DNA of 41,909 nt from a virus: positions 1 through 41,909 of the IMG/VR virus record IMGVR_UViG_3300030202_000864. One strand, written 5' to 3'. Shown piece by piece: positions 3,575-40,971 of this stretch; within the stretch, counting starts at the first letter, position 1, and the number at the start of each line of letters is the position of its first letter. A model generated the notes under the pieces. It had not been told where the DNA came from and made no database searches. It was given only the letters and a program-made list of their open reading frames with translations. A program made the translations under genes and the position numbers.

Positions 3575-6319
3575 GTGGCTGCTGAGTACGAAGTCAATAT
3601 CAAGCTTAATAGCAAGGAGATTGAGACTCAGCTTGGCCAGATAGATAGAAAAATTGCCAAAATTGGAAAGCCCAAAGGTGGAAGCTCCGGAAAAAGAGCT
3701 GGTATTGCTGGGCTTCTCCCTAGTTCGACGGAATTAAAGGCCGCTGAAAGAGGTCTTACTCAACTAACTGCTAAAACAAAAAACATTCAAAGCATTCAAG
3801 ATAAATTTTCCGAGAGAAGGATTCGTGCGTTAGCTCGAAGCAATAGTCTTAATGAAAAAGAACTACGATTAAACCGACAGCTGACTAACGAAGCTAGGCA
3901 GCGTTTGCGTTTGCTTAGCCAGTCAGGAGCGAAAGGCTTTGATGCAACGCGGCCTCAAGGTCGTCAGATGTCTGAAAATATAAATGCTCTTGCAAATGCT
4001 CAGGAGAAAAGAGCAAGGCTTGCGAATAAAATCAACGAAATCGAGGCCAAAGGCCTTAATGTTGACAAGTTAAGAAAACAGCTAGGAAAAGCTACAACTG
4101 AGCAAAGTGCAAGGCGTTTTGCTAGCGCTACTAAAGAGTTTAGGTTGCTTGAGAAAACAATAAGACTAGAAGAGTCGAAACTAAAGATTTTAAAACAACA
4201 ACAACAAGGCTTTGCGTCTAGCCCAATTCGTGGTGGTGCGAACATGCCGGGATCGCCGCTTGCTCTTCAAGGAGGAATGAACCGACTTGGGCAGGTAGGT
4301 CTTGGTGCTGGTTTTCCGTTGCTGTTTGGTGGTGGTCCAGGGTCAGTTATTGGCGGCGGCCTAGGAGGACTAACGGGATCTTTCGGAGCGCAAATTGCTC
4401 TTAGTGCTGCCGGGCAGCAGATAGATCAACTTATAGGACGCACGGTTGCGTCAGCTGAGTCTTTGGGCTCTGTTGGCACGGCGCTTGATTTCTTGAGAGA
4501 ACGGTCGCTTTTTAGTTCAAAAGAGTCTGAACAGCTAGCAAGAAAGCTTGAAAATCAAGGTGATTTAACTGGTATAGCGGCGCTAGTCACGCAAGAACTT
4601 AATGAAGCTCTTGGTCCGGGTGGCATTCAGAAGATGCAAGATCTTGCTGAGCAAACAAGGCTGGCTAAAGAACAGTGGGGGCAGCTGACAACAAACCTTG
4701 AGCTTTTAATTGCAGGTCCTTTAGCAGAGTTTTTAAAGATTGTTAACGCAACTCTTGGAATCAAGGTTGCACAGTCTCAATTTGCGCGGGCGTTAACGAC
4801 TCTACAGGAAAAAGACCCTCAAAGGCTGAGGGAAATGTTGCCTTCGTTTGAAGGAGCAAAAGATTCGACTAAAGCTATTGCTAGTAATTTGGCTTTTGGT
4901 CCAAATATGGCTGGAGGCATATTCAATATGCAGGGCCTTTCAGAGGGGGCGTTGACAAGTTTTGCAGAGCAAATGAATTCTATAATTCGCGGCATGGGTA
5001 CACCGGATGGTGTTATACCAATTACGGAAGAAGACCGCAAAAGGTTTAAGCCTAAGAAAGGCAGCGGAGTAAAAGAAGAAGAGCGTCTTCAGAAGCGTTT
5101 GGGCAAACTTGAAGAAGAGCGCAAAAAAGTTCTTGAGATTTCTCGTTTTAGGGACAAAATTGCTGCAGCAGAGGCGGCTGAAGATGATGAGCTTGTTATC
5201 CGACTGCAAGGTGAGCAGCGGATAGCTGAAATCGAAGCTAGCCGGTTAAAGGCTTTAGTTGGTGTTGCCGATCAACGTGAAAGAGACGCTATCAACATTG
5301 GTAAAGCTACTGAAAAGCTAGCTGCTCATCGCACTACAGAGCGTGAGCTAGCAGAGCTGCAGCTTCAAAGACAGGAAAAATTTGAAGATACCATTGAAGA
5401 CTTGGAGCATCAGCTTGCGCTTGCTACGGCAACGACTGAGGCAGAGCGTGAACGGCTTCGGATCGAAAAAGATTTGCAAGAGCTAAGAGAGGGTGGAATG
5501 TCCGAGTCACAACTTGGACAGGTTGGTGATTTGATGCGGCAAATATCCGCAGAAAATAATCCTCTTAACCAATTTATTAAGCAATCAGTTGAGAGTTTGA
5601 ACAACCTTGAGCAGCACGCTGTTCAGGTATCTCAAGGTATCGGTAACGCCATTGGCAGCTCGCTTGTCAACGGAATGCAGAACCTGATCACTGGCGCGAC
5701 AAGCGTCAAGCAAGTCTTTGCGGACATGCTGAAGAGCATTGCTGATGTGTTGGCTCAGCAAGCTGCACAGATGATTGCAACGTATATCGCGATTGGTGTT
5801 GCTCGATTGTTTGCTGGGATGGGCAGTGGAGGTGGTGAAACAACTCCGCCAACTACATTGCCTGGTTCAGCTAGTCAGAGTGGATTAGGGCTAAACATCA
5901 ATGGAGTTGATCAAGGAATAAGTCCGTTTGGTCCAGGCAGTGTTGCAGTAGCAAGTGGTGGCTATGTTTCCGGACCCACTCGCGCTCTTGTCGGTGAAGG
6001 CGGTGAGTCTGAGTACATCATTCCTGAGTCGAAGATGCGTGAAAGCATGTCGCGTTATTCACGCGGTGCTCGTGGCGGTTCTGTTATTCCTGAAACGGGC
6101 GGCTCTGGAACGTCAGGCGAAGGTGGCGGAACAGCAGTTGCCGCACCAATCGACGTTCGATACACCGTCGAACGCATCAACAGCGTTGATTATGTGACTG
6201 CTGATCAATTCCAAGCTGGCATGAGGCGAGCTGCTGACGAGGGTGCTAAACAGGGAGAGCAGAAGACACTGAAGCGGTTGCAGATGAGCAGCAGCACTCG
6301 TAAGAGGATTGGAATGTGA
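3575..6319 (+). CDS. Tail tape measure protein
   Basis: 914 residues from GTG 3575; sets tail length and travels through the tube at infection. Long charged helices and coiled coils fill about 1-215 and 480-700 (K/E/Q/R-rich). A Gly-rich hydrophobic region lies at about 225-285 (GLGAGFPLLFGGGPGSVIGG). A helical C-terminal segment (about 710-760: GMQNLITGATSVKQVFADM, IATYIAIGVARLFAGM) resembles lambda gpH ends. At about 3 bases of gene per angstrom-scale rule this implies a tail well over 100 nm. It has no TGGARCG motif over its entire length, unlike most of the genome. Confidence 0.9.
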   Translation: MAAEYEVNIKLNSKEIETQLGQIDRKIAKIGKPKGGSSGKRAGIAGLLPSSTELKAAERGLTQLTAKTKNIQSIQDKFSERRIRALARSNSLNEKELRLNRQLTNEARQRLRLLSQSGAKGFDATRPQGRQMSENINALANAQEKRARLANKINEIEAKGLNVDKLRKQLGKATTEQSARRFASATKEFRLLEKTIRLEESKLKILKQQQQGFASSPIRGGANMPGSPLALQGGMNRLGQVGLGAGFPLLFGGGPGSVIGGGLGGLTGSFGAQIALSAAGQQIDQLIGRTVASAESLGSVGTALDFLRERSLFSSKESEQLARKLENQGDLTGIAALVTQELNEALGPGGIQKMQDLAEQTRLAKEQWGQLTTNLELLIAGPLAEFLKIVNATLGIKVAQSQFARALTTLQEKDPQRLREMLPSFEGAKDSTKAIASNLAFGPNMAGGIFNMQGLSEGALTSFAEQMNSIIRGMGTPDGVIPITEEDRKRFKPKKGSGVKEEERLQKRLGKLEEERKKVLEISRFRDKIAAAEAAEDDELVIRLQGEQRIAEIEASRLKALVGVADQRERDAINIGKATEKLAAHRTTERELAELQLQRQEKFEDTIEDLEHQLALATATTEAERERLRIEKDLQELREGGMSESQLGQVGDLMRQISAENNPLNQFIKQSVESLNNLEQHAVQVSQGIGNAIGSSLVNGMQNLITGATSVKQVFADMLKSIADVLAQQAAQMIATYIAIGVARLFAGMGSGGGETTPPTTLPGSASQSGLGLNINGVDQGISPFGPGSVAVASGGYVSGPTRALVGEGGESEYIIPESKMRESMSRYSRGARGGSVIPETGGSGTSGEGGGTAVAAPIDVRYTVERINSVDYVTADQFQAGMRRAADEGAKQGEQKTLKRLQMSSSTRKRIGM

Positions 6320-24624: not shown

Positions 24625-25143
24625 ATGGCGGTTCTGTGTGACTGGGAGATCAGGTCTCGATGCGGACGCAGTCAGATGGTCGTTCCATTTGCAGAAGAGC
24701 TATTGAATCCAGCCAGTTTGGACCTGAGGCTAGGAAACAACCTAATGATTGAAACGATGCACCAAGAGGAGCTGTTGCGCCTTGACATCTCCGATCGAAC
24801 AGAAGAGGAGCCTTACAAGCTTCTCCCCGGCCACTTTTGCTTGGCTGAGACACTTGAACTGTTTAACCTGCCCGACGACATCAGCTGTCAATTTGTACTC
24901 AAGTCAAGCCGCGCACGATCTGGTCTTAATCACCTGCTTGCTGGTTGGTGCGACCCAGGTTGGCACGGATCAAAGCTGACATTAGAGCTAAAAAACGAAC
25001 GTCGTTTTCATAGCTTGCCTTTGTACCCAGGCATGAAAATTGGACAGATGGTGTTTCACGCAATGTCTAACGTCCCAATGCACAGCTATCGGGAGACAGG
25101 CCATTACAACAACCACTTGACAGTCATGCCGTCCGTGGCATGA
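24625..25143 (+). CDS. dcd: dCTP deaminase
   Basis: 172 residues. Deaminates dCTP to dUTP (or dUMP if bifunctional), feeding dTTP synthesis for phage replication. Family motifs in order: NPASLDLRLG (28-37), KSSRARSGL (93-101), AGWCDPGW then LTLELKNER with catalytic-type Glu121, YPGMKIGQMVF (134-144) and a C-terminal nucleotide-closing segment GHYNN. Length is a little below the usual about 190. The Ser and Arg of KSSRAR match nucleotide-binding residues. The dUTPase fold is shared, so dUTPase activity cannot be excluded, but the spacing favours deaminase. Confidence 0.8.
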   Translation: MAVLCDWEIRSRCGRSQMVVPFAEELLNPASLDLRLGNNLMIETMHQEELLRLDISDRTEEEPYKLLPGHFCLAETLELFNLPDDISCQFVLKSSRARSGLNHLLAGWCDPGWHGSKLTLELKNERRFHSLPLYPGMKIGQMVFHAMSNVPMHSYRETGHYNNHLTVMPSVA

Positions 25144-25969: not shown

Positions 25970-26223
25970 TTGTCACTTTTGAAAATGTGATAGAGCCTTT
26001 TAAATTCATGGATTGGTGTTGTTGTAAGGATGCTGACTTCAACATTGCAGCGTAGTGCGTTGATGATTTGTCGCTCCATGTAATCAATGTTGGATTCATA
26101 GGTGACTTGTTCAACGCTGAGCGGCTTGTCGTCTAGGTCAAACGAAGTGAAGCGCGTTATAGCGAGGGGAAAGTTCTCGTCTTCGATCTGACAATACTGA
26201 AGATGCACTGATTTAGTCGCCAT
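25966..26223 (-). CDS. Hypothetical protein (85 residues)
   Basis: Start placed at ATG 26223 (MATKSVHLQYCQIEDENF), 11 bases inside the end of the upstream RHH gene; a longer frame to 26382 would run through that gene and is unlikely. The sequence alternates strands and helices (FDLDDKPLSVEQVTYESN, VEVSILTTTPIHEFKRLYH). No family recognised. Confidence 0.5.
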   Translation of the reverse strand: MATKSVHLQYCQIEDENFPLAITRFTSFDLDDKPLSVEQVTYESNIDYMERQIINALRCNVEVSILTTTPIHEFKRLYHIFKSDK

Positions 26224-26476
26224 GTCCTGGGCTGAAGAGTTCGTTGAAGACTGTGGCGACAAGGCTTTCAGCCTGTTGCCTATCCAGACCATAGCTGGAT
26301 CGACGACGCACTTTCGTAACAGCTTTATGAAAATCACTGGTTGTAAGTCCGAAGTGATTGGGCGGTTGAGACAAGCGTTCACGAATCAATTCTGACCTGT
26401 GAATACCTTTTTCTTTGGCTTCAGTAGAGAGTCTTTCGACAAGCTCTTCTGGAAGGAGGGTTTTGATTTCTTTCAT
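26213..26476 (-). CDS. Ribbon-helix-helix regulator
   Basis: 87 residues. Classic RHH start: strand EIKTLLPEELVE, helix RLSTEAKEKG, then HRSELIRERLSQ. A second region (TTSDFHKAVTKVRRRSS) may extend dimer or effector contacts. It sits beside the iteron cluster and primase-helicase gene, so replication or copy control is a possible target. Confidence 0.65.
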   Translation of the reverse strand: MKEIKTLLPEELVERLSTEAKEKGIHRSELIRERLSQPPNHFGLTTSDFHKAVTKVRRRSSYGLDRQQAESLVATVFNELFSPGHGD

Positions 26477-26485
26477 GGGGAGATG

Positions 26486-26629
26486 TTACTTACGCTTTGG
26501 GCGTTTTTTAGTCTTTCGAGACGGTTTGATACGCGGTTTGTCCGGCTTGGACTGTATGCGAGCGATGGTCTCGTGATAGCCGGGTGGTTCTGGGACGCCT
26601 GAACGCTCCAAAATCTTGGTCCAGTTCAT
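26486..26629 (-). CDS. Small basic protein (47 residues)
   Basis: ATG at 26629 with GAGGG a few bases upstream; TAA at 26486-26488. Product starts MNWTKILERSGVPEPPGYHE, then TIARIQSKPDKP and a Lys/Arg-rich end. The 'PEPPGYxET' pattern recurs in small cyanobacterial and cyanophage proteins I recall. It lies immediately downstream of the iteron region in the direction of transcription. Function unknown. Confidence 0.55.
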   Translation of the reverse strand: MNWTKILERSGVPEPPGYHETIARIQSKPDKPRIKPSRKTKKRPKRK

Positions 26630-26647
26630 CCCTCACGCGCGTATAGA

Positions 26648-26820
26648 TGTCCAGGGTGTCCAGGGCGCTCCAAAACGTAGTGATCGCAATGGATTTGACC
26701 CTGGACAGTAGGGGTGGACAGGTTAGATGTGTCCAGCCTCTTCGTTAGACAGGTCAATCTCAACCGCTCCATCAAACAGACCCTGGACACCTCTTGATTG
26801 TCCAGGGGTAGTGTCCAGGG
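26648..26820. repeat. Iteron cluster TGTCCAGGG, candidate replication origin
   Basis: Six perfect copies of TGTCCAGGG or its complement in 173 bases: 26648-26656 and 26657-26665 (tandem direct), 26699-26707 (inverted), 26781-26789 (inverted), 26799-26807 and 26812-26820 (direct, 13 bases apart). Near copies lie at 26730-26736 and 26894-26900. The cluster spans the 3' end and downstream flank of the primase-helicase gene; iterons beside a replication initiator gene are typical of origins. Origin function is inference. Confidence 0.65.
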
Positions 26821-28957
26821 GTAGATCCCGCTCCATGACTGGTTTTATTGGAACGGTGGACACTCTCTCTCCCTCTCCACGTGCGAGGACAGCTGTCCAG
26901 TTCTTAGCTTGAGATTTCTTTGGAGCGTTTGAGACGATCAAGCCCCGCTTCTCAAGTCGTTGAAGTGATTTGTGAATCGCAGCTGGTTTGCCGTCGATCA
27001 GCGGATCACAGACCAGATCATCTTTGGAGCGTGACTCGGGATAGACGACGCGGAGCTTCTGGAGAACACGATCAGTGACGGAAGCAGGAGAAGTGTTGGT
27101 CACGTCCACCTCAGGCGTGAAATCAGAGATGGTGAAGCTGAGGTCGTCTTGCATCTGCATGACGAGCTGAGTGCCCATCCGACCAGAGCGTGACTTCTCG
27201 ATGGTGATGAGGCGGCTGTGAGCGCCTACAACGCCACGTTCCTCATCAGTGGGCTTACGGAGCGCCCAGGTCTCGTCAACGGCGTCCCTGATGGCTGAGG
27301 TGCCTCTGAAGCCACCGTTCTTGTTGGCGTGGTGAACGATAAGGATGGTGGCCTTAGGGAAGAGAACACCGTTGTTCTTGGTCAGCCAGTAGAGCGGAGT
27401 GGCGAAGTCAGACTTGTTCTCGTCAAAGGCTCGACCACCAGAGCAGCCGATCAGGGAGTCGATGACAACCAGCTTGGGCTGATGCTTTTTCATCAGCTTG
27501 ATGAACTGGGCATAGCGTTGAAGCTGCCAGTCCGTTTGGATCATGCTGTCTTTGGTGATGGGGAAGTCCACCTCTTGCAGCTGTTCTTTGAGTTGAACAA
27601 GAGGCTGGTCGCCATTCAGGAGAACAACAGGACCCTTTTGCACTGGAACGTGATTGCCACGGACGACAAAAGGTTTGCCAGTTGCGATGTGCTTAGCGAG
27701 AGCCCAAGCAGACATGGATTTACCGTCACCACCAGCGCCATAGATCAAGACGACAGAAGGGTGAGGGAGAACATCAGGGATGAGGTACTCACGCTCTGTT
27801 TCGGTCTCCATCAACTCCTGAATGCTCATGATGTCCTTGGCCTCTTCAAATGAAAGCTGGTCAACGATCAGCTTTTCGAGAGCAGTTTGATCGCGGTAGC
27901 CAGCCTGAAGAGCAAGGGTATTGAGCTTGTAGTTGACTTCAGCAGGATTATCGAGATCAAGGATCTTTTTGGCGCGGCGGATGACTTCATCGAAATCGAG
28001 AGTTGCCTGCCGGATTTCAGTTACAACTTTGGCTTCTGCGGATTCAACGATTTTTTTAGTGTCTTCTGAAAATCGTTTCCGCTTTGGGTCCTCCCGGTCT
28101 GCCAGCCAGATCAGGCTGCCGAGGCCAACACCATTGCCTTTGAAGGAATACCAAACCTCTTCACAAGGGTTGGAGTCTTCCCATTCAGAGGCGTAATCAG
28201 GATCTTGACAGGACCAAGAAGCCCAGAGGTGAAGACCCATATCGGTGGGCAACGCGGAATGAATTGCCATTCCGATCTTTACCCAGTGATCACGGGTGCC
28301 CTTTCCTTGGGGCGAAATCACTGACAGACATTCAAAGATGATCTGCTGGATCTCGTCTTGTGTGCGATCAGTGAAGTCCAGATCTTTTTTGTTGATGGTG
28401 CGGGGAGGCTGTTTCATCTCCGCTAGCAACCAGTCTGGAGCTGTAGGGATGTCAGCGAGATCGCCGTCTAAAAGATATTGACCGGGTTTAGATACCTTGC
28501 CGCCGGGATAAGCACCAAAGACAACACCTTGGCGGCCCCAGAGGATCTCGTAGTCTCCACCGTCTTCCTTACGGAGTCCATGACCCTTTACGTCGGCCCA
28601 CAGTTCTTCAGGGACACGGAAGAGATATTTGGCTGCGTTGGCCTTGGTGGAAGTAATTATTGGAGCGCCATCGAGCGAGGAGCCCCAAGCCTTCAGATAT
28701 TTGGAGAGGTTCCGGTCAACGTCCAGGATGACGATGCCATTGCCACGGATACCGGTGAAGACACCAACAGCTTTGAGGTCAGAGTTGCGCTTGACCGCGA
28801 GAGCTACATCGGCAGGTCCGAACTTCTGTTCGTAGCTTGCCTCTAGAGGGTTTTTGCCAGTGGCTGGCTTACCGGAAACCATCCGGGTGCCTTTGGCATA
28901 TATCGGTGCGTAAACGAGGCCTTCTGGCAGCGCCTTGACGAACTGATCGAAGTTCAT
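26723..28957 (-). CDS. Primase-polymerase / helicase fusion, replication initiator-like
   Basis: 744 residues from ATG 28957; an upstream TTG (28984) would add nine. Domain order: bifunctional prim-pol at about 1-180 with catalytic VILDVDRN (Asp79, Asp81) and a His/Lys-bearing core; PriCT-like helical region about 195-290 (GTRDHWVKIGMAIHS); RecA-like/RepA-type ATPase about 395-600 with Walker A GAGGDGKS (407-414), Walker B KLVVID (495-500) and VHHANK plus RGTSAIRD; C-terminal winged-helix-like part about 640-700. It would make primers and unwind DNA. No DNA polymerase gene is present, so the host enzyme probably extends the primers. Confidence 0.85.
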   Translation of the reverse strand: MNFDQFVKALPEGLVYAPIYAKGTRMVSGKPATGKNPLEASYEQKFGPADVALAVKRNSDLKAVGVFTGIRGNGIVILDVDRNLSKYLKAWGSSLDGAPIITSTKANAAKYLFRVPEELWADVKGHGLRKEDGGDYEILWGRQGVVFGAYPGGKVSKPGQYLLDGDLADIPTAPDWLLAEMKQPPRTINKKDLDFTDRTQDEIQQIIFECLSVISPQGKGTRDHWVKIGMAIHSALPTDMGLHLWASWSCQDPDYASEWEDSNPCEEVWYSFKGNGVGLGSLIWLADREDPKRKRFSEDTKKIVESAEAKVVTEIRQATLDFDEVIRRAKKILDLDNPAEVNYKLNTLALQAGYRDQTALEKLIVDQLSFEEAKDIMSIQELMETETEREYLIPDVLPHPSVVLIYGAGGDGKSMSAWALAKHIATGKPFVVRGNHVPVQKGPVVLLNGDQPLVQLKEQLQEVDFPITKDSMIQTDWQLQRYAQFIKLMKKHQPKLVVIDSLIGCSGGRAFDENKSDFATPLYWLTKNNGVLFPKATILIVHHANKNGGFRGTSAIRDAVDETWALRKPTDEERGVVGAHSRLITIEKSRSGRMGTQLVMQMQDDLSFTISDFTPEVDVTNTSPASVTDRVLQKLRVVYPESRSKDDLVCDPLIDGKPAAIHKSLQRLEKRGLIVSNAPKKSQAKNWTAVLARGEGERVSTVPIKPVMERDLPLDTTPGQSRGVQGLFDGAVEIDLSNEEAGHI

Positions 28958-28984
28958 GTAAGATTGGAACGGAATGTAAAACAA

Positions 28985-36699: not shown

Positions 36700-36797
36700 C
36701 AACCTATCGACCTTTTTCCAGATAATAACCTCCCACACTGTCTTCTGGCACGGTGACAAGGGGGGTAGGGGTTGAAAACCTGTGTAATGTAATAGGC

Positions 36798-38051
36798 ATG
36801 AGCACAAAAGCAGAGCCTGTAAGCCTGAGATGGGCGCAGGGCCAAGTTTTCACAAGCGACAAACGCTTCCGCGTCTTAGTTGCCGGTCGTCGATTCGGCA
36901 AATCGTACCTTTCATGCGTTGAGTTACTTCGTGGAGCGCTCAACAGGCCGGGTGAAACCTTCTTTTATTGCGCTCCGACTTATCGGATGGCCAAAGATAT
37001 TGCGTGGAGAGCGTTAAAAAAGCTAGTTCCGAAGGTTTGGATCCACAGCAAGAACGAAACAGACCTGCGAATTGAGCTAATTAACGGTTCAACGATCGAA
37101 TTGAAGGGTACTGAGAACGCAATGGCGTTGAGGGGCCGGAGTTTGTCGGGCGTAGTGCTAGACGAAGCGGCATTTATGGATTCAGAGGTCTGGTTTGAGG
37201 TGATCAGGCCTGCATTAGCGGATAAAGAGGGCTGGGCGTTGTTTATTTCGACGCCAGACGGTACAGCTAGCTGGTTTTATGACTTGTGGTGTTATGTCCC
37301 AGACGACGAAACAAACGAATGGCAACGATGGAGCTATACGACGATTGAAGGCGGAAACGTCAGTAAGCATGAGGTCGAAGCAGCCCGCGCTCAACTTGAT
37401 ACGCGCACGTTCCGCCAGGAATTTGAAGCGTCCTTCGAGAACCTAACTGGTCTAGTCGCCATCAGTTTTTCTGATGACAACATTTCGACAGAGGCCAAGG
37501 ATATTTCAATTCAACCGCTGTTGCTGGGCGTTGACTTCAACGTGGATCCAATGAGCGGCATCTGTGCCGTCAAAGATGGCGACACGTTATACGTGTTTGA
37601 CGAAATCACGCTGACTGGCGGTGCCACAACCTGGGATTTCGCTGATGAAGTGACCCGTAGATACGGTGTGGATCGTCGAATTATTGCGTGTCCTGACCCT
37701 ACAGGCGGTGCAAGAAAGACAAGTGGTGTGGGCGTAACGGACCACGCAATCCTTAGGCGCAGTGGTTTTACGGTTCAATCGCCGCGATCACCGTGGAAGA
37801 TTCGCGACAAGATTACAGCCGTCAACACTGGCCTAATGGATGCTTCTGGAGCGCGAAGGGTCAAGATTCATCCACGGTGCAAGGAGTTGATCAAGTCGTT
37901 GCGAACGCTAACTTACGCGCCAGGCACTGGTTTGCCAAATAAGAACCTAGGCGTGGACCACGCTTTTGATGCTTTCGGGTATTTGGTGTTGCAGCAATTC
38001 AACCTTGCAAAACCTGAAACTTTGGGGCCAACGAGTTATCGGCTTTACTAG
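36798..38051 (+). CDS. terL: Terminase large subunit
   Basis: 417 residues from ATG 36798. ATPase: Walker A AGRRFGKS (29-36), Walker B VVLDEA (119-124), and coupling motif STPDGT (151-156). RNase H-like nuclease: LLGVDFNVDP with Asp246, CPDPTGGA with Asp300, and a final HAFDAFGYLV. It pumps DNA into the capsid and cuts the concatemer. It is divergent from terS and followed by small genes, then portal. Confidence 0.9.
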   Translation: MSTKAEPVSLRWAQGQVFTSDKRFRVLVAGRRFGKSYLSCVELLRGALNRPGETFFYCAPTYRMAKDIAWRALKKLVPKVWIHSKNETDLRIELINGSTIELKGTENAMALRGRSLSGVVLDEAAFMDSEVWFEVIRPALADKEGWALFISTPDGTASWFYDLWCYVPDDETNEWQRWSYTTIEGGNVSKHEVEAARAQLDTRTFRQEFEASFENLTGLVAISFSDDNISTEAKDISIQPLLLGVDFNVDPMSGICAVKDGDTLYVFDEITLTGGATTWDFADEVTRRYGVDRRIIACPDPTGGARKTSGVGVTDHAILRRSGFTVQSPRSPWKIRDKITAVNTGLMDASGARRVKIHPRCKELIKSLRTLTYAPGTGLPNKNLGVDHAFDAFGYLVLQQFNLAKPETLGPTSYRLY

Positions 38052-39519: not shown

Positions 39520-40971
39520 ATGACTTACTCCGTTCCCGGTCTCGTTAGAACGCATCTTGTCAGCTCTTCCTATATGGGAAGTGTTGACAGTCCGTTCGTG
39601 CGAACACGGGCCGTGATTGACCAGATGAAGGGCTGGGAGATCATGAAGGCCGTTACAAACGGCACGGAGTATTTACGTGACAACTGTGAGGCATTTCTGC
39701 CTCTAGAGCCCCGTGAGGACTACTCCGCATATCTGGCACGGGTTAATCGCTCTGTTTTTACGCCCTATACGCAACGGTTGCTTCGTGCAGCAGCTGGGTT
39801 AATCCTGCGAAAACCAATTAGCGTCCAAGGTGATCCCTATTGGACAGATGTTTTTAACAAGGACGTTGATGGGTGTGGCTCAGATTTAGATGAGTACGCT
39901 CGACGACTCTTGATCTGTGCCCTGACATATGGGCACTGCCACACGCTGGTTGATTTTCCTGCGCCTACGGACGCAAGAAGTCTTGCAGAGGAGCGTGCTC
40001 TTAATCGTCGGCCCTATTGGATTGAGGTGGATCCGACCCAGGTGTACGGTTGGCGACTGGACCGCGAGACCAATTACGGAAGTCTTACGCAAGTTCGGAT
40101 TGGGGAAAAAGCTGTAGTCCCTGACGGCGAGTTCGGAGAAAAAGTTTATGACCAAGTACGTGTCATCGAGCCTGGTCGTTATCGCGTCTTTAGGCAAGAA
40201 GAGCAAAAGAAAGAGATGCAAGGGAACTTCCCATACCCCTCTTCCTTCGATCAATCCGACGCTACAGCGCAGTACGAGCTGGTTGAGTCAGGCGATTTCT
40301 CGCTTGGGCAGATCCCCTTGGTAACGGTTTATGCAAATAAAACCGATACGTTGACCAGTAAGCCACCGCTACTGGACATTGCTCATCTCAATCTGGCCCA
40401 CTATCAGCGGCAAGCGGATCTTATCCACAGCCTCCACATCGCTTCGCAACCAATGCTCGTCCTTGAGGGTTGGGACGATCAAACAAAAGACATGGCTATC
40501 AGCGTTAATTACGCGATGGCGACCCAGCCGGGTAACAAGGTCTATTACGTGGAGCCTGCGGCAAGCGCGTTTGAAGCGCAATCGGCTGAGATCCAGGAGT
40601 TGCAACAACAGATGGCGACACTCGGCATCAGCACGCTGAGCCAGCAAAAATTTGTTGCTGAATCTGCGGACGCACGCCGTTTGGATCGTATTGACACCAA
40701 CTCAATGTTGTCGATGGTGTCTATGGATCTGGAGTCTGGTTTGCAGAAGGCTTACAACATGGCGGCTAATTATTTAGGTCTTGAGCCACCTGAGGTGAAA
40801 ATCAGCCGTGACTTCGACTTGCAGCGTTTGATTGGTCAAGACATTACAGCGATGGCTCAGCTGTTTGAAGACAACGTGATTGATCGCGAAGAGTTCCGCG
40901 ACATGCTGGTTCAGGGTGAAATCCTGCCAAACGCTGCTGAGTCGCCAGATTCCGCGCCAGAGTTACAGTAG
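39520..40971 (+). CDS. Portal protein (DUF4055 type)
   Basis: 483 residues. Forms the twelve-fold ring through which DNA passes. Family pattern: an N-terminal PFVRTRAVIDQMKGWEIMKA, then YSAYLARVNRSVFTPYTQRL, LGQIPLVTVYANK, LAHYQRQADLIHSLHIAS, and a helical end (LQQQMATLGISTLSQQK). Fits DUF4055-family portal proteins. It lies upstream of the scaffold and, across the window ends, the capsid gene, the standard order. It carries no TGGARCG motif. Confidence 0.8.
   Translation: MTYSVPGLVRTHLVSSSYMGSVDSPFVRTRAVIDQMKGWEIMKAVTNGTEYLRDNCEAFLPLEPREDYSAYLARVNRSVFTPYTQRLLRAAAGLILRKPISVQGDPYWTDVFNKDVDGCGSDLDEYARRLLICALTYGHCHTLVDFPAPTDARSLAEERALNRRPYWIEVDPTQVYGWRLDRETNYGSLTQVRIGEKAVVPDGEFGEKVYDQVRVIEPGRYRVFRQEEQKKEMQGNFPYPSSFDQSDATAQYELVESGDFSLGQIPLVTVYANKTDTLTSKPPLLDIAHLNLAHYQRQADLIHSLHIASQPMLVLEGWDDQTKDMAISVNYAMATQPGNKVYYVEPAASAFEAQSAEIQELQQQMATLGISTLSQQKFVAESADARRLDRIDTNSMLSMVSMDLESGLQKAYNMAANYLGLEPPEVKISRDFDLQRLIGQDITAMAQLFEDNVIDREEFRDMLVQGEILPNAAESPDSAPELQ

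Follow-up and report, generated by a model that had tools for sequence, protein, structure and literature searches.

In Staphylococcus, SaPI Rep and SCCmec Cch2 use a C-terminal domain to bind short repeats that lie directly downstream of their own gene, and these helicases reportedly bind as two hexamers (PMC7581432). In pRN1 ORF904 and the replication protein of phage BIP-1, primase, helicase, and C-terminal winged helix are fused, and the origin is located just 3′ of the gene (PMC4234260). At oriV of RSF1010 (IncQ), a separate protein, RepC, reads the iterons, and primase sites are present on both strands (PMC4234260). The ori of phage lambda lies inside the initiator gene O, and the iterons of plasmids are known to require helical phasing (PMC5043065).

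The window studied here, which is the whole 41,909-base stretch of a viral record, carries a repeat cluster at the end of a primase-helicase gene. We consider this cluster likely to be the replication origin of its phage family, read by the family's own primase-helicase. In our best reading, the origin would work like those of SaPI Rep/ori, pRN1, and RSF1010, with a two-arm, partly coding architecture that is distinct from all of them. As in the SaPI and SCCmec systems, the repeats are downstream of their own helicase gene, whose product has a candidate C-terminal DNA-binding domain. Unlike those systems, the motor is RecA-type (RecA/AAA_25 matches) and shares one chain with a primase region, and the locus shows exact mirror symmetry, a half-coding array, a repeat-residue code, and a gap that changes in steps of ~11 bp. 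The three-part protein and an origin at the 3′ end of its own gene are shared with pRN1 and BIP-1, but published descriptions give those two large stem-loops lacking iterons as origins, and an SF3 helicase. A Foldseek search with the helicase domain placed RSF1010 RepA (1olo) first (3.9e-10), and RadA, KaiC, and T7 gp4 scored equally in VIA-align Z on the whole model; however, RepA, RepB′, and RepC are separate proteins rather than one fused protein, and the RSF1010 iterons are direct repeats rather than mirror-symmetric. The likeness to lambda is that of an iteron origin within an initiator gene, although O is not a helicase and the lambda origin has dimer-binding inverted repeats and an AT-rich region.

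The sequence-only reading had claimed six exact TGTCCAGGG/CCCTGGACA sites in 173 bases, no copies of this 9-mer elsewhere, and two GGTCCAGGG near-misses at about 4337 and 38201. All six sites were recovered at the positions it gave, at 26648 and 26657 (plus strand, in tandem), 26699 and 26781 (minus strand), and 26799 and 26812 (plus strand, 13 bp apart). No exact 9-mer was found outside 26648–26820 when the whole 41,909-base virus record was searched, and the near-misses are present at 4334 and 38200. Only 0.25 copies would be expected under an order-3 Markov model, versus the six observed. The functional unit seems to be a shorter core, TGTCCA, rather than the 9-mer, and three core sites are additional to the exact copies (26858–26862, 26730–26734, and 26716–26720). 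A specific short repeat is clustered near the putative initiator gene and nowhere else.

Eight sites with a TGTCC core form two four-site arms in exact mirror symmetry. Arm 1 runs from an outer site, TGTCCACCG, at 26854–26862 (minus), through TGTCCAGGG at 26812–26820 and 26799–26807 (both plus), to an inner TGTCCAGGG at 26781–26789 (minus). Arm 2 runs from an inner TGTCCAGCC at 26730–26738 (plus), through TGTCCACCC at 26712–26720 and TGTCCAGGG at 26699–26707 (both minus), to an outer TGTCCAGGG at 26657–26665 (plus). The core spacings are 46-13-14-(55)-14-13-46, the 55 bp being the central gap between the arms (26735–26784), measured from core start to core start. A ninth, extra site, TGTCCAGGG at 26648–26656 (plus), is restricted to the window's clade. 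Conserved boxes flank both arms, with CTATACGCGCG outside arm 2 (26636–26646, minus) and its mirror counterpart CTCTCCACGTGCGAG outside arm 1 (26873–26887), so that ACGYGCG boxes stand at both array ends. The arm spacers and flanks are inverted repeats as well; at positions outside the sites, across five window-clade arrays, identity was 0.43 in register versus ~0.25 out of register. Inverted sites such as 26781/26799 could pair in RNA, and the helicase transcript might then form hairpins at its 3′ end, serving as a terminator or processing signal. We find this extremely improbable, since no T run follows the hairpin and since steps of ~11 bp between the arms and the link to a DNA-binding domain suggest that the array acts as duplex DNA.

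An AT-rich unwinding element is a feature of most iteron origins, common but not universal. The array is 53% GC and has no AT-rich stretch inside it; across the region tested for such an element beside the iterons (26400–27050), the richest AT stretch reached 64% and was at least 130 bp from the array. Because this element is missing, we claim that the locus works like an iteron-type origin rather than that it has full membership in that class.

The primase-helicase gene (26723–28957, minus strand, 744 aa, identified by Pfam, PHROG, and fold matches) has its 3′ end within the array. Arm 1 is within the last codons, arm 2 starts just ahead of the stop codon, and the rest of arm 2 is beyond it. 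The arrangement thus resembles that of the staphylococcal systems, with repeats immediately after a helicase gene whose product has a candidate C-terminal DNA-binding domain, except that half of the array overlaps the gene end. Within the window's clade, the synonymous difference was lowest in iteron codons (0.013), intermediate in other codons of the tail (0.158), and highest in the rest of the gene (0.309), while amino-acid change in the tail exceeded that in most of the gene. Such strong synonymous constraint on the coding half supports a coding origin.

Our comparison set comprised 79 viral loci encoding primase-helicase relatives, several of them truncated, which with the window gave 80 sequences. 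All close relatives (helicase identity ≥84%) whose record covers the cluster have it at identical offsets, so its absence from close relatives, which had been named as a refuting observation, was not seen. These relatives do not always hold all six exact 9-mers, and one (L067) has a central insertion. By a strict test, the eight-site mirror array is present in 55 of the 80 sequences, and it is also present in most further relatives. Core-site density in sequences bearing the array was 14–24 per kb inside it and ~0.5–3 per kb elsewhere. The geometry is kept among relatives while the repeat changes at all array sites together: TGTCCCA or TGTCCCC replaces it at lower helicase identity (~45–78%), and TGTCACA or TGTTTCA does so in a few relatives that are more distant. 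Two loci (L041 and L042) show an in-place inversion of one site, the corresponding one in each arm. Four others (L314–L317) have six-site arrays of three sites per arm, with the middle site missing in both arms, and L074 and L083 resemble them when read by eye. These paired inversions and paired absences indicate that both arms follow a single plan as they evolve.

The primase-helicase consists of an N-terminal primase-like region, PriCT-2, a RecA-type hexameric-helicase domain, a C-terminal winged helix, and a disordered tail. PHROG primase families and PriCT-2 cover the N-terminal half. PriCT-2 spans residues ~218–295 in the numbering of a 753-aa form (Pfam PriCT_2, 2.6e-15) and the helicase domain residues ~387–614 (Pfam AAA_25, 4.9e-21); the start codon is most likely the ATG at 28957, giving 744 aa, and a stop codon just ahead of it in several relatives disfavors the TTG at 28984. 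A Pfam search with the first 200 residues gave no match, and neither the helicase alignment nor the C-terminal domain gave a useful match in a sequence search of solved structures. In an AlphaFold2 model made on the primase-helicase alignment (A1), for which pTM was just 0.45 overall, residues 627–689 (26891–27079, minus) adopt an H-H-H-wing arrangement and form a winged helix that is our candidate iteron-binding domain. Folded alone, this domain gave weak but consistent MarR-like matches (best E 3e-3, TMq ~0.65). The tail that follows (residues 692–744; 26726–26884, minus) is encoded by the array and is predicted to be disordered, with pLDDT of 27–43.

Relatives of this protein are numerous in metagenomic data, where hundreds were found. 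With the helicase as query at E 1e-5, no family member was found among 50,697 phage records, the best matches having coverage of at most 37% and identity below 32%. Scanning a genome collection with the helicase yielded only three MAG contigs (L086, L087, and L088), which are filed as bacterial. They are probably viral contigs binned with bacteria, and therefore we made no host inference from them.

The type of repeat tracks one residue of the recognition helix (658–670), His662 in the window (codon 26972–26974, minus). His or Gln at this position occurs with TGTCCA, Arg with TGTCCCA, and Lys with TGTCCCC. Outside the array-encoded tail, residue 662 was the best single predictor of repeat type (UC 0.956, next best 0.831). 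Among relatives fetched later, Gln again occurred with TGTCCA (in a distant subfamily), as did Gly, while Arg occurred with TGTCCCA and Lys with TGTCCC; the exceptions to the rule are L083 (Lys, TGTCACA) and L325 (Arg, TGTCCA). A tree built without the C-terminus indicated at least eight changes of repeat type. Two comparisons of independent pairs each gave four same and zero opposite (p = 0.125 in either case), a result that is suggestive and by itself not significant, as the independent events are too few. Because repeats and domain change together in evolution, the C-terminal domain of the primase-helicase probably recognizes the array repeats. The earlier claim that part of the cluster encodes the helicase C-terminus, making it a coding origin, is well supported as a candidate by the conserved geometry, the concerted switching, the synonymous constraint, and this coupling to the winged helix.

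Two small genes lie just downstream on the same strand. One encodes a small basic protein of 47 aa, predicted from sequence (26486–26629, minus), that had no match in Pfam and is absent beside the array in some relatives. The other (26213–26476, minus) encodes an RHH (CopG-like) protein whose Pfam RHH/CopG matches are weak (3e-4 to 6e-4). RHH proteins commonly bind short repeated sites, and most relatives have an RHH gene immediately downstream in the same orientation, so the neighboring RHH protein could instead use the cluster as an operator or as a partition (parC-like) array, for operon control or segregation of phage DNA. We regard this as very unlikely. In ten loci (L051, L053, L061, L081, L127, L129, L139, L143, L147, and L159), of which nearly all have full arrays, no RHH gene was found within 3–4 kb downstream; nearly identical RHH proteins sit beside a different repeat (L030, L056, and L058); diverged ones sit beside the same repeat (L018 and L023); and repeat type tracks the helicase C-terminus instead. 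The array is therefore decoupled from the RHH gene, including the part that encodes the binding domain. Of the original origin proposal, the candidate iteron cluster, partly coding, is well supported, while a role for the RHH protein as its reader is disfavored, that protein being missing, nearly unchanged, or diverged independently of the repeats.

The binding evidence fits equally well with an autoregulatory site, where binding by the helicase winged helix would govern transcription of the small genes downstream and not the start of replication, and the array does lie between the helicase and those genes. We think this improbable, since the gene contains half of the array, a simple operator would not usually combine mirror symmetry with a phased gap, and the array stays while the downstream genes vary among relatives.

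Spacing inside each arm is rigid, whereas the gap between the arms moves in steps of ~11 bp. Gap lengths among relatives were 21–24, 33–34, 44, 54–55, 67, 78, 100, and 111 bp; a period of 11.1 bp describes these eight clusters with a resultant of 0.97, and none of 20,000 random sets fit as well over periods of 9.5–12.5. Later loci added seven lengths (26, 35, 45, 47, 57, 89, and 92), which cluster at the fixed period (p = 0.007), are centered ~0.17 turn off the first set, and gave p = 0.07 in a phase-zero test; this subfamily has a slightly different arm spacing. L067/L298 is a natural spacing mutant in which a 56-bp insertion extends the gap to 111 bp from 55 bp and leaves the arms intact. 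We considered 11-bp tandem duplication as a source of the gap lengths and rejected it, as gaps read by eye had no such repeats. DNA loops reportedly show a repeat of ~11 bp in vivo, a cyanobacterium included (PMC3922697). We infer from these spacings contact between complexes bound to the two arms.

Under the origin reading, the C-terminal winged helix would bind the array sites, with residue 662 reading the bases that follow TGTCC. Each arm would then assemble one initiator-helicase complex, the two facing in opposite orientations on the same face of the DNA, after which the RecA-type motor would open the DNA and the attached primase region would lay the first primers, giving two forks. Loading of two hexamers by the arms and replication in both directions are the least certain of these steps. 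GC skew did not change sign at the array, so bidirectional replication is unsupported by it. A fuller version holds that two primase-helicase rings of the DnaB/RepA type are loaded oppositely and simultaneously on unmelted phage DNA, with no separate loader and no AT-rich unwinding element, with the arms in helical register in vivo, and with specificity reset by a single recognition-helix residue. Taken as a whole, this version is possible but doubtful. Natural variation among the relatives of this marine phage offers a ready test of co-evolution between an initiator-helicase and its origin, the variables being the type of repeat, a single candidate specificity residue, and a gap quantized in ~11-bp steps. 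Double loading of a self-initiating helicase would become directly testable in a compact phage system.

A similar motif is found in another setting. Among the matches listed, at least ~60 prophage or phage records have TGGGACA-N6-TGGGACA-N9-TGTCCCA beside small-terminase-like genes, and TGTCCCA arrays with 13/16 spacing and a small-terminase neighbor are present in L164–L191 and others (e.g., L191:604–716). The lambdoid array region of L191 had no match in the phage collection. Since the same heptamer and 13/16 spacing occur beside a small-terminase-like gene in at least ~60 prophage records of ~40 kb, the cluster studied here might be thought a packaging (cos/pac) site bound by small terminase. 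That is highly unlikely in our estimation, given that the large terminase gene (36753–38051) is ~10 kb from the array and that the arrays of this family sit at the helicase end and co-vary with the helicase. The small-terminase-adjacent arrays are probably cos/pac sites, a different use of a similar motif.

Elsewhere in the window, a dispersed 7-mer, TGGARCG, is abundant. Its complementary forms CGCTCCA and CGTTCCA occur 41 and 36 times, respectively, across 1–41909, the former at ~6 times the shuffled expectation. The 7-mer is strand-biased (56 plus versus 21 minus), with the bias reversed around 25.8–26.9 kb, and is partly codon-phased. The portal protein (39520–40971) has cyanophage S-2L as its best isolate match (38% identity) and an 82% match to a single-cell marine virus fragment, AG-345-A17. 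This phage of 41,909 bases also carries a dCTP deaminase-like gene (24625–25143; phrog_1663, 2e-51).
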